Below, in pieces: positions 51,776 through 56,399 of a DNA stretch of 64,000 nucleotides. The first letter of the stretch is position 1; every line of letters begins with the position of its first letter. The DNA lies in NCBI GenBank assembly GCA_947469285.1, contig CANIOW010000012.1, positions 1 through 64,000 on the forward strand, written 5' to 3'. This DNA is from Gammaproteobacteria bacterium. Its GTDB lineage: Bacteria > Pseudomonadota > Gammaproteobacteria > Steroidobacterales > Steroidobacteraceae. The notes beneath the pieces were generated by a model. That model was given only the letters and a program-made list of their open reading frames with translations. It did no database searches and was not told where the DNA came from. A program made the position numbers and the translations under genes.

Positions 51776-52450
51776 TCAATCCTTCCAGGGGAAGGTAGTG
51801 ACCAGCGACACGATCACGCGGTCTGCATAAGTATCCGAGAAGGCGTATTTCACGCTGGCCGTGAAGTGACCGACAGGCTTGGACACCGCGATGCCATAGT
51901 CCTCGTAAGCGCCACCGGCCGCCGTCCAATAATCGCCCCCGCTCTTGCCAGCATGCACGCTCAGCGCGAAGTCCTTGGGCAGCGGCTGCGTGTAGTTAGC
52001 CTCCAAGTAATACGCACTCAGGCCACTGCTACTAAAGTCGTCGGAGTAATAATACTTCGTGCCGAAATTCTTATAACCACCACCCACCGCCAGTTCGAAG
52101 TTATTCACGTGATCGCCGCCGGGATGATAGGTGTAATAGATGAACCCAGCGTTCCAAGTGAAGCCGTTGTCATAGGATTTGGTATAACCGCCATACACAT
52201 CGGCCTCCACGTTGGAATCCGTTCCCGGCCCGAAATCGACGTTGGATGCCCAGGCACCTAAGGTGAAGCCTTCCCCAAAGGCGTAGTCTAGGCTGGCCTG
52301 CAGTGCCGGGTCTTCCGACGTCTGGGTGACGCCACGGAAATCGTAGTCACTGGTGAGCGTCACGGTGCTGCTCAGGTCACCGGCATGGCCGGTCGTGGTG
52401 CCCGCCACCAGTAGAACAGCCGTCAGCAGCGTTTTCAGCGTTGTCGTCAT
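51776..52450 (-). CDS. TorF/TIGR02001-family putative outer-membrane porin
   Basis: 224 residues. A signal peptide (LLTAVLLVAGTTTGHAGDL) precedes a barrel of alternating strands with TSDYDFRGVTQTSEDPALQ and VYGGYTKSYDNGFTWNAGFI, the hallmarks of this family. It ends VSLVTTFPWKD. The family is common in proteobacteria, often near nitrogen-control genes, and is thought to be a porin; the solute is unknown. A sigma-54-like promoter 77-93 bases upstream is consistent with nitrogen regulation. Confidence 0.87.
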   Translation of the reverse strand: MTTTLKTLLTAVLLVAGTTTGHAGDLSSTVTLTSDYDFRGVTQTSEDPALQASLDYAFGEGFTLGAWASNVDFGPGTDSNVEADVYGGYTKSYDNGFTWNAGFIYYTYHPGGDHVNNFELAVGGGYKNFGTKYYYSDDFSSSGLSAYYLEANYTQPLPKDFALSVHAGKSGGDYWTAAGGAYEDYGIAVSKPVGHFTASVKYAFSDTYADRVIVSLVTTFPWKD

Positions 52451-52526
52451 CGAAGATCCCCTTTATCCGGCCTGTTGCCGGCGTTTGCCTGGCCATGCAG
52501 CCCTCCTGCATGCCTGCTTACTGCAA

Positions 52527-52543
52527 TGCACTAGGCGTGCCAA
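52527..52543 (-). promoter_or_regulatory. Sigma-54-type promoter of the TIGR02001-family gene
   Basis: On the minus strand TTGGCACGCCTAGTGCA has an intact TTGGCACG -24 block and GTGCA at -12 with exact GG-N10-GC spacing (one base off TTGCA). It predicts a leader of about 65 bases. Confidence 0.55.
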
Positions 52544-52733
52544 CCCAGGCCCCCCACGCTGAATACCGCGCCAATGGCGGATTCATTCCGGAAATAACGG
52601 GCACAGCCACACTTTTCACGGACCCGGAGCCCGAGAGGAACAACGCTGGCCGGGTAGCGCGCCCACCGACAGCACCATCGTGGGGCGAGGTGGAGCGAGG
52701 CGCGCACTCGCGCAGCGCAGCGCTAAGCCGTTG

Positions 52734-52767
52734 GCACTGGGGGTAAAACCCCGTTTTCACCCAGTGC
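52734..52767. repeat. Long imperfect inverted repeat
   Basis: The arms GCACTGGG...GTAAAAC and GTTTTCACCCAGTGC pair almost throughout around a CCC loop with one bulge. It is 90 bases before the barrel gene start and just upstream of the C-tract promoter. It could be a terminator-like element isolating that promoter, or a regulator site. Confidence 0.5.
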
Positions 52768-52803
52768 TGTCTGAGTTTGCGCACTGCTCCACGGTTTGCG
52801 TCA

Positions 52804-52820
52804 CCCCCCCCCCCTACACT
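52804..52820 (+). promoter_or_regulatory. C11 tract next to a -10 box: candidate phase-variable promoter
   Basis: Eleven C at 52804-52814 are followed directly by TACACT (52815-52820), a good -10 box. A weak -35 (GGTTTG/TTTGCG) lies on the other side, so the tract fills the spacer. Adding or losing C would change the spacing, as in Neisseria opc and porA. A start near 52827 fits the ATG at 52857. Confidence 0.5.
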
Positions 52821-52856
52821 GGCGGTGATGCAATCGATGAGACTCGGAGCCGACCC

Positions 52857-54089
52857 ATGCCCTTATTTCCCAGCGTCCTCAAACGCCCATTCCGACCACT
52901 GATCTGGCAGGCGACCTTGCTGGGGATACTGGCGCCCGCCGCGTACGCAAGCACGACGCCCACCGACGCCGCCCCTGCTGCGCATGCGGCCCACACGGCC
53001 CACACGGCGCAGGCGACCGTACCGACCAGCACTGCCAGCGAACCCTTGCCGGCGGCCACCGCCCTGCCGCATAGCCACAGCCATGTTTCCTCAGGACTGA
53101 ACCTGGTGGGCTTCCTGACGGCGGCCTACTCTCGTGACGGCTCAGGCACGGCTCAGTATTTAGGTGGCAAGGAAGGTCATCTCGAAGGTGCTTTGCTCGT
53201 GACCTATGGACAAGGCCCGTTTCGTTTCCTGAGTGAAGCGGTACTCACCACGAAAGAACAAGAGATCGAGCGACTGCAAGTGGGCATCGAAGCGCGCCCC
53301 GGCACCATGGTGTGGCTAGGCCGGGTCCACCAGCCCAGCAGTTACTGGAACACCGAATTTCACCACGGCCAGTATCTGCAAAACAGCATCACCCGCCCCG
53401 CCATCGAGGCCTGGGAGGACGACGGCGGCATTCTCACCCAACATGTCGCCGGCCTGCTGTTTGAAACCGAACACAGCCTACACAACGGCAGCACCGTGCG
53501 CCTAGCGACCAGCGCCGGACTAGCGCCCGCGATCGAGCATGGGACGTTGCAACCCTTTAGCGTGACCGGCAGCCCTAATGGCCTGCGCCGCGCCGCGTTC
53601 GCCCTGCGTCTGGATTTCCTACCGGATGGTATCGGCGAACAAGCCTTCGGCTTGATGAGCGGCTTCAGCGGCCTCAAAGCACGCAATGCCGGCCTGACTG
53701 ACCTCGATCATATCGACCAGACTACCTTTGGTGTCTACGGCGACGTGCATGTGGGTGAAACCCGTTGGTTGGCGTCGGTCTATCGCATTCGCAATCGCTT
53801 TGACTATGGCCAACGTCTGGTCTCCGAACATGCTACCTCGTGGTTTCTGCATGGCGAATGGCGCCTCAATGAACAATGGATGACCTACGCCCGACATGAG
53901 TCCACATTGGGCACCCGCGGGAGCGCCTATTTCCAGCTATATCCCGGCTTTATCAGCGAGCGCAGCATCGTCGGCGCACGCCGCGAACTCGGCACCCATC
54001 AAGCCCTGAGTGTAGAAGCCGGTGGTGCACGCGCCAACGAACACCGTTTCACCGAGCTAAGACTCCAATGGAGCGCGCTGTTTCATTGA
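52857..54089 (+). CDS. Exported His-rich barrel-like protein (putative porin)
   Basis: 410 residues from ATG 52857 (GGAG 7 bases upstream). A signal peptide (WQATLLGILAPAAYAS) is followed by an Ala/Thr/His-rich segment (AAHAAHTAHTAQ and HSHSHVSSG), then a barrel-like domain (LNLVGFLTAAYSRDG onward) with many aromatic-alternating strands, ending ELRLQWSALFH. His clusters suggest metal contact. I recognise no named family. It is followed with a one-base overlap by a binding-protein-like gene and a histidine kinase. Confidence 0.75.
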   Translation: MPLFPSVLKRPFRPLIWQATLLGILAPAAYASTTPTDAAPAAHAAHTAHTAQATVPTSTASEPLPAATALPHSHSHVSSGLNLVGFLTAAYSRDGSGTAQYLGGKEGHLEGALLVTYGQGPFRFLSEAVLTTKEQEIERLQVGIEARPGTMVWLGRVHQPSSYWNTEFHHGQYLQNSITRPAIEAWEDDGGILTQHVAGLLFETEHSLHNGSTVRLATSAGLAPAIEHGTLQPFSVTGSPNGLRRAAFALRLDFLPDGIGEQAFGLMSGFSGLKARNAGLTDLDHIDQTTFGVYGDVHVGETRWLASVYRIRNRFDYGQRLVSEHATSWFLHGEWRLNEQWMTYARHESTLGTRGSAYFQLYPGFISERSIVGARRELGTHQALSVEAGGARANEHRFTELRLQWSALFH

Positions 54090-54520
54090 TGCGGCGCCTC
54101 CTCGCACCTCTGCTGCTGTTCCTGCTAGCGGTCGGGCCCACCCAGGCGCGAGATCTCGTGCTCGTCGTGCGTACCGATAGTCCCGTCATCGAGATGGACT
54201 CGCTGACCGTACGCAAGCTCTTCATGGGGTTCGCCGTGGCGGCGAACACCCACTCTTTACATGCCTTGCGTCAGGAAGGCGATGTCAACCTCGACCGAGC
54301 GTTCCTGCAAGCTGTAGTCGGCATGTCCGAAGACCAATACGGCCGCCGACTACTACGTATGGCGATCAAACAAGGCCGGGAACCGCCCCGCACAGTGACG
54401 TCTACTGCCGAAATGCTGCTCGCACTACATGAAGATCCACTGGCCATCGGCTGCATGTGGGCAGACCAAATCCTTGGAAACGCCGACGTGCGTGTCGTGA
54501 GACTCCTATGGCGCGACTAA
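54089..54520 (+). CDS. Small periplasmic phosphate-binding-protein-like protein
   Basis: 143 residues from ATG 54089, sharing a base with the barrel gene stop (an earlier ATG at 54068 is possible). A signal peptide (LLAPLLLFLLAVGPTQARD) is followed by one half of a PstS/PBP-like fold: LTVRKLFMGFAVAAN and the ending IGCMWADQILGNADVRVV. It is too short for a complete two-lobe binding protein. Its end overlaps the histidine kinase gene by 13 bases. It probably presents a ligand to the kinase sensor domain; this is inference. Confidence 0.72.
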   Translation: MRRLLAPLLLFLLAVGPTQARDLVLVVRTDSPVIEMDSLTVRKLFMGFAVAANTHSLHALRQEGDVNLDRAFLQAVVGMSEDQYGRRLLRMAIKQGREPPRTVTSTAEMLLALHEDPLAIGCMWADQILGNADVRVVRLLWRD

Positions 54521-55998
54521 CTGAAACCTTGGGTGGGCGCGTACTGCTAGGCGTACTAGTAGCGCACTTCCTGCTGCTGCCGCCGCTGTTTTTCAGCCTT
54601 CAGCGCATCGTCAATGGCAGCCACTCCGAAATCTTCATCAACGAAGTGCGCGCCTATTCACGCTTCATCGGCGACGAACTAGAGCGTGATGGCACCACCA
54701 TGTCCACCGACCGGAAACTTTCGCTGCTGGATAGCGTCGTGCTGTCTGGTCATGCCATGTACGCAGAACTGGAAATCGACGGAAACCACTTACGTAGCCG
54801 GGCGAATGACGACGGCAATGCGGTGTTCCCGGGGCAAGATTTCACGCTAAATTCCGGTGGCGATGAGGTTTACTACCTTGCCCTGCCGGTAGAACTCGGA
54901 GCGACGAGCGGCATGCTGCGACTTGGCTTTGATGAACGTTCCGTGCTGGATGAATCCAATCGAGCCAAGACCCGCATCTGGTACGTTCTTGCCGCTTATT
55001 TATTATTCTCCACCATCGGCGCTATCTTTACTATTCGCTGGCTGACGCGCCCTCTTGGCGAACTGCGTGAAGCATCACGCGCCGTCGCGGGCGGCGCCTA
55101 TGAAACCCCCTTATCCACCACCAGCACCTTGCACGAGGTGCAGGGACTGGCAGAGGACCTCGAGTTCATGCGTGACCGTCTTGCGGCTGCGAATGTCCAG
55201 CTTAAGCGTGAGATTCGTGAACGCGAAGCCAGTGATCAGGGACGCGTAAAGCTCGAGCAACAACTACGCCAACAGCAGAAACTGCGCGAACTGGGCACCC
55301 TCGCTGGCGGCATCGCTCACGAGTTCAATAACGTCTTAGTACCCATCCTGCTCTACACCGAATCGGCGATCGACGAACTGCCTGAAAGCAGCCCGATCCG
55401 CGAAGACCTGCAGGCCGCCTTGCTGGCGGCCCAGCGCGCACGCGCAGTGGTACGACAGATCTTACTGTTTGCACGCCACATGGATGATGGTGAGCGGACC
55501 ACCTTGGATTTGAGCGGCGCCGTGAAAGAAACAGTCGGCCTATTGCGCGCACTCATGCCCGCCCAATTGATGCTCATCGAGGATTACGCCACTGAACGCC
55601 TCGAGATCAACGCCAACGCTGCGTTGCTGGGGCAGGTGGTCATGAATCTTTGTACCAATGCACGCCAGGCAATGCGCGAGAAAGGCGGCACCCTCACGCT
55701 GCGTACTTGGAGCGAAATTGGGCCGAACGACCTACCAAAGGGCTGTTTATCGGTCAGCGACGAAGGCCACGGCATGAGCCCTGAGGTGATAGCACGCATT
55801 TTTGAGCCGTTTTTCACCACGCGCGAGGTAGGTGAAGGTACCGGCCTTGGCCTCCCCGTGGTGCACGGCATCGTCGAGTCATTACGCGGTACCATAGTCG
55901 TGGAAAGCACGCTTGGAGTCGGCAGTACCTTCACGATGCGCTGGCCATTGGTGGCCACTAACAGCGTAGATACACAGGCCCTAGGAGCCAGTTCATGA
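54508..55998 (+). CDS. Membrane sensor histidine kinase
   Basis: 496 residues from ATG 54508. Two membrane helices (about 12-31 and 155-178) enclose a periplasmic sensor domain of about 125 residues. Then a HAMP domain, a coiled coil, a dimerisation domain with the phospho-His in GGIAHEFNNVL, and an ATPase domain with NLCTNARQAM (N box), VSDEGHGM and GEGTGLGLPVVHG (G boxes). The HEFNN form is typical of NtrB-like kinases that work with receiver-only or NtrC-like partners. Its stop overlaps the receiver gene by ATGA. Confidence 0.92.
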   Translation: MARLTETLGGRVLLGVLVAHFLLLPPLFFSLQRIVNGSHSEIFINEVRAYSRFIGDELERDGTTMSTDRKLSLLDSVVLSGHAMYAELEIDGNHLRSRANDDGNAVFPGQDFTLNSGGDEVYYLALPVELGATSGMLRLGFDERSVLDESNRAKTRIWYVLAAYLLFSTIGAIFTIRWLTRPLGELREASRAVAGGAYETPLSTTSTLHEVQGLAEDLEFMRDRLAAANVQLKREIREREASDQGRVKLEQQLRQQQKLRELGTLAGGIAHEFNNVLVPILLYTESAIDELPESSPIREDLQAALLAAQRARAVVRQILLFARHMDDGERTTLDLSGAVKETVGLLRALMPAQLMLIEDYATERLEINANAALLGQVVMNLCTNARQAMREKGGTLTLRTWSEIGPNDLPKGCLSVSDEGHGMSPEVIARIFEPFFTTREVGEGTGLGLPVVHGIVESLRGTIVVESTLGVGSTFTMRWPLVATNSVDTQALGASS

Positions 55999-56399
55999 GT
56001 CGCATTCTGATTATTGACGATGAACCAAGCGTCCGCCGCGCGTTGCGTCGAGTGCTGGAGAAATTCGGCCATGAAGTGGACGAGGCGGGCGATGGCGCAG
56101 CAGGCGCCATTCTCTGCGCGAGTGTGCACCCAGATTTGGTTATCACTGACGTGATCATGCCAAAGATGAATGGTATTGATGCCACCAAACTCATTCGCGA
56201 ATCAAACCCGAACGTCCGCATTTTAGCCATCTCGGGCGGTGGCAATTTCGAAGAACAATCCTACAAACCAGAAGCGATCACCACCAGCGCCTACTTGGCA
56301 GCCGCGGAACGCGCTGGCGCAGACAGCGTCATGACCAAACCGTTTGATCGAGCGGAATTGATGGAACGCGTCGACGCATTACTGGCACTCAAGCGTTAA
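55995..56399 (+). CDS. Single-domain response regulator (receiver)
   Basis: 134 residues, receiver only. IDDEPSVRRAL gives the acidic pocket, LVITDVIMPKMNG the phospho-Asp (about residue 52), LAISGGG and MTKPF the switch and Lys. A longer loop lies between them (residues about 85-108, EEQSYKPEAITTSAYLAAAE). There is no DNA-binding domain, so output must go through another protein. It is coupled to the histidine kinase. Confidence 0.9.
   Translation: MSRILIIDDEPSVRRALRRVLEKFGHEVDEAGDGAAGAILCASVHPDLVITDVIMPKMNGIDATKLIRESNPNVRILAISGGGNFEEQSYKPEAITTSAYLAAAERAGADSVMTKPFDRAELMERVDALLALKR

Follow-up and report, generated by a model that had tools for sequence, protein, structure and literature searches.

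A run of eleven cytosines (C11) lies shortly upstream of a gene for a porin-like protein in the DNA analysed here (a stretch of 64,000 nucleotides, hereafter the window), which raises the question of whether slippage in the run could vary the expression of the genes that follow. At porA, an outer-membrane protein gene, a promoter homopolymer lies immediately upstream of the -10 hexamer, and a preliminary description of the window had likewise placed the C11 tract in a promoter spacer, between a weak -35 and a TACACT -10. The tract was confirmed directly 5' of TACACT, with 36 nt from that hexamer to the ATG of the barrel gene (Table 1). We tentatively favour, at a probability of about 0.4, the reading in which the promoter is real and a slippage-prone, species-specific C11 spacer governs its strength.

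Table 1. Features of the C11 locus in the window, and other long C or G runs of the same genome
Feature	Position	Strand	Basis or setting
C11 homopolymer tract	52804..52814	+	sequence read directly
TACACT, probable -10 hexamer	52815..52820	+	TACACT in G003, TAGACT in G001
Upstream block GTTTGCGCACTGCTCCACG, possible activator site	52775..52793	+	partly kept by two congeners
GGAG, probable ribosome-binding site, 7 nt 5' of ATG 52857	52846..52849	+	read directly
24-codon ORF, ATG 7 nt 3' of TACACT, frame differs from barrel	52828..52902	+	ORF and congener comparison
Porin-like beta-barrel protein, 410 aa, without Pfam or NCBIfam family	52857..54089	+	fold and congener alignment
PstS-like secreted protein, 150 aa, phosphate-binding fold, about half size	54068..54520	+	predicted structure
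Sensor histidine kinase (HAMP, HisKA, HATPase_c)	54508..55998	+	domain matches
Receiver-only response regulator	55995..56399	+	domain matches
G10 run, contig C17	L072:1574-1583		4 nt before ATG of TonB-dependent receptor, ribosome-binding position
G9 run, contig C1	L071:2165-2173		5 nt before GTG of another TonB-dependent receptor, ribosome-binding position
C10 run (coding sense)	L052:1536-1545		directly abuts GTG start codon of lon
C9 run (coding sense)	L032:1501-1509		62 nt before groES, probable promoter region
C10 run			37 nt before purD
C10 run			131 nt before MFS gene

The operon and its products

The four genes downstream of the tract form an operon, as evidenced by overlapping reading frames and a gene order that is identical in two congeners (G001 and G003) and in G027 and G005, which are more distant. 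Their products combine a surface-type protein with a sensory system, as described earlier, namely the porin-like barrel, the kinase and the receiver. The ORF list contains longer forms of the barrel and kinase genes from upstream GTG codons; the starts used here were read from the sequence together with that list. Neither the barrel nor the PstS-like protein belongs to a Pfam family, their relatives gave no credible match either, and sequence searches returned no credible solved relative of the two. The barrel model (mean pLDDT 73, with the first 75 residues poor) matches porins in Foldseek (best E 2.2e-10, TM about 0.5–0.6), and by this predicted fold the tract would lie, as at porA and opc, upstream of an outer-membrane protein gene. 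The PstS-like model (pLDDT 86) matches phosphate-binding proteins over 109–110 residues (Z 13.0, rmsd 2.1–2.2), with a VIA-align list that leaves other folds possible. A match to the barrel was found in 8 of 59 whole genomes, its own genome counted, and there were 0 matches to this locus in viral contigs.

Probable promoter elements and comparison with congeners

If TACACT is the -10, a long homopolymer abuts it in the manner of porA and opc, but a -35 hexamer on the far side of the tract is missing: the region 52440–52920 holds no sigma-70 pair with 16–18 nt spacing, and the best TTG-like hexamer (TTGCGT at 52796–52801) stands just 13 nt from TACACT. The weak -35 of the preliminary description is thus unsupported, while the other half of its claim is upheld: the tract adjoins a -10-like hexamer, and two congeners keep this hexamer. 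No terminator or attenuator was found near the tract. The divergent intergenic region also contains an inverted repeat (GCACTGGG...CCCAGTGC, 52733–52768), with a predicted fold no more stable than those of shuffled sequences (z -0.78).

Two of the three congeners compared (G001, G002 and G003) carry the barrel gene, and both have the hexamer, as TAGACT in G001 and TACACT in G003. We counted 22 nt from the end of a conserved CACG to the hexamer in each of them and 21 nt in the window, and an ATG follows 7 nt after the hexamer in every case, a comparison of three sequences with loosely aligned flanks. It is chiefly the conserved hexamer, the spacing from block to hexamer and the 7-nt ATG distance that support TAsACT as a genuine -10. 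In the congeners the ATG next to the hexamer shares the barrel's reading frame; in the window it does not, and the barrel starts at a separate ATG with a GGAG. In-frame stop codons precede the congener ATG (TAA 27 nt upstream in G003, TGA 51 nt in G001), and barrel translation there therefore begins at or after it. As the gap from hexamer to ATG leaves no room for a leader, the congener barrel message may be leaderless. The 24-codon ORF that opens at the corresponding ATG in the window overlaps the barrel start.

The same stop codons bear on an alternative in which barrel translation starts 5' of the tract; C11 would then be coding, and its slippage would shift the frame. The barrel frame of the window is open from 52563 through C11 (stop at 52560) and offers a GTG at 52680, which would allow such a start, but the congeners have in-frame stops just upstream, and ATG 52857, with its GGAG, begins the region that aligns with the signal-peptide-like N-terminus of the congener proteins. 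We therefore regard a coding tract as very improbable.

At the matching place the tract is absent from G001 and G003, which have ordinary sequence instead. Within 400 nt 5' of the barrel, C runs reach at most 5 in G001, 3 in G003 and 4 in both G027 and G005, and neither C nor G forms a run of 10 in the three searched congeners. A tract of fixed length in relatives, put forward earlier as the observation that would speak against phase variation, was thus not found; the two congeners have no tract of any length, and slippage-based phase variation could therefore exist in the window's species only.

Expected frequency of long C and G runs

C11 is the longest C or G run in the 3.1-Mb genome by whole-genome count. 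The 57 C8/G8 matches in this genome correspond to 43 runs after our grouping, 35 of them of length 8, three of length 9, four of length 10 and one of length 11. Expected numbers of such runs, per 64 kb and per genome, were obtained from Markov models of orders 1–5 fitted to the window. With orders 2–5, runs of at least 11 C or G are expected 0.003–0.031 times per 64 kb and 0.16–1.5 times per genome (2.6 with order 1), compared with one observed. The corresponding genome-wide figures for orders 2–5 are 5 observed and 0.8–5.1 expected for runs of at least 10, 8 and 4.3–17.5 for at least 9, and 43 and 22–61 for at least 8, giving an excess of long runs of about six-fold at most (order 2) and none with order 5. 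Shuffling provided the nearest available statistic to a chance estimate for C11 within the window: three overlapping C9 matches compared with 0.96 +/- 1.25 per shuffled window, at least three being reached in 12 of 100 shuffles. C11 is unusual within a single window, yet about one such run is expected per genome of the same size, and because composition alone predicts 0.16–1.5 of them its presence is unremarkable.

This expectation favours a neutral expansion, in which C runs are tolerated in the non-coding DNA of a 62% GC genome and C11 is simply the longest of them rather than an evolved switch, and we consider this almost as likely as the promoter-spacer reading. Also consistent with it are the absence of the tract from the two congeners and the location of seven of the eight runs of at least 9 C or G, which lie 5' of genes (assigned by Pfam), lon, groES, purD and an MFS gene among them; the eighth run is coding. 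Nor does the architecture recur among 100 family genomes: C8 or longer followed by TANANT within 0–2 nt showed no excess (8 matches at 5 sites, compared with 9 control matches), a count that shows no C-tract promoter architecture across the family. Two observations fit neutral expansion less well, namely the placement of C11 right against a conserved -10-like hexamer that precedes an outer-membrane operon, and the three of seven upstream runs that precede outer-membrane protein genes, which exceeds the share of such genes, as compared with 48 plug-domain matches in the genome. Even a neutral tract may change promoter strength by accident, and the locus would then serve as a reminder that a genome's longest homopolymer can adjoin a promoter by accident.

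The tract as a possible promoter spacer

If instead promoter strength depends on the C11 spacer, the reading that we favour, TACACT would drive the operon of barrel, PstS-like protein, histidine kinase and receiver. A promoter with no recognisable -35 would probably need a further site 5' of it, possibly the conserved block that ends at 52793, which we posit to be bound by a protein. C11 would set the distance from this block to the -10, at 21 nt here compared with 22 nt in the two congeners, and tract length would vary, slippage shifting that distance by single bases. We propose that expression of the barrel and the sensor would therefore be tuned together, with length variation altering expression in the manner of the Bordetella fim C-stretch. 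Against this mechanism, mutS is present and intact, which lowers slippage. If the proposal is correct, slippage varies a surface protein plus a co-made sensor, so that a clonal population would comprise sensing and non-sensing cells, and a contingency locus would have evolved in one species from what is an ordinary promoter in its congeners.

In form, the window resembles both the opc and the fim systems. As at Neisseria opc and porA, a poly-C or poly-G tract would stand immediately 5' of the -10 of an outer-membrane gene, and eleven C is a known opc length; unlike these loci, the window has no recognisable -35, its operon includes a sensor, its congeners have no tract, and the tract length was read from one assembly. 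For opc, one report describes an eleven-C strain that gave high-expressing variants with twelve C, the change from C11 to C12 raising expression (PMC3447861). In Bordetella, the promoter C-tracts of fim2 and fim3 vary in length, and one report describes a threshold model of 22 bases from activator region to -10 that was proposed and then disputed, on the basis that a single base in the short fimX tract accompanied a 3.8-fold change in fimX transcript (PMC1891110). A further report records that a non-agglutinating mutant had lost a single C from its fim3 promoter (PMC10172299). The window shares with fim2, fim3 and fimX a poly-C tract just 5' of the putative -10 of a surface-protein gene, with no -35 found, and its candidate upstream element would lie at a fixed spacing of about 22 nt from the -10 (21 nt in the window, 22 nt in both congeners). 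It differs in that the fim promoters have a BvgA-type activator, whereas the block here is a candidate site and the operon's own regulator has no DNA-binding domain, and in that length variation is known for fim, whereas the window's tract comes from a single assembly and is absent from close relatives. The analogy with porA and opc drawn previously is thus fair in form, but Bordetella fim, with no -35 and a fixed distance to an upstream site, is the closer parallel. Among the papers listed by literature searches, which fell short of most subscription papers, there was no tract-controlled porin/sensor operon.

Other long runs in the genome

The G10 and G9 runs in front of the start codons of two TonB-dependent receptor genes suggest a further possibility, that slippage-prone C/G runs at the promoters or ribosome-binding sites of the barrel and both receptors form a selected contingency set. 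Three of seven upstream runs precede outer-membrane protein genes, with P about 0.0002–0.002 if 1.7–4% of genes are of this kind, or two of six without the given C11 run (P 0.004–0.022), both values being post hoc and dependent on an assumed gene share. Runs also precede lon, groES, purD and the MFS gene, however, the first three of which leave the surface specificity of long runs weak. Codon 92 of the G10 receptor gene is an in-frame TAG, close orthologues of either receptor are absent from the three congeners, and G-rich ribosome-binding sites are to be expected generally: GGGGGGGGN{3,7}ATGA gave 80 matches compared with 25 control matches in 100 genomes (our column sums, with overlapping matches counted). 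A selected set of this kind is accordingly unlikely. The broader proposal, in which a C-tract spacer acting as a ruler switches the whole sensory operon and joins the two G9/G10 receptor genes in a small phasome, seems equally doubtful.

A poly-G ribosome-binding site linked to receptors across the family was rejected, since the downstream ORF was readable at 15 of 30 loci and two of these looked like TonB-dependent receptors (one belongs to the genome analysed here, the second was assigned by visual inspection), while the remaining ORFs were varied. Some family genomes gave C10 matches by the hundred; these were set aside and not counted as support, since a number of the displayed runs sit at the ends of contigs, suggesting a sequencing artefact. 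In the G10-run receptor gene (L072:1588-1863) the frame stays open for about 713 further codons after the TAG. A9/T9 runs gave five matches in the same genome.
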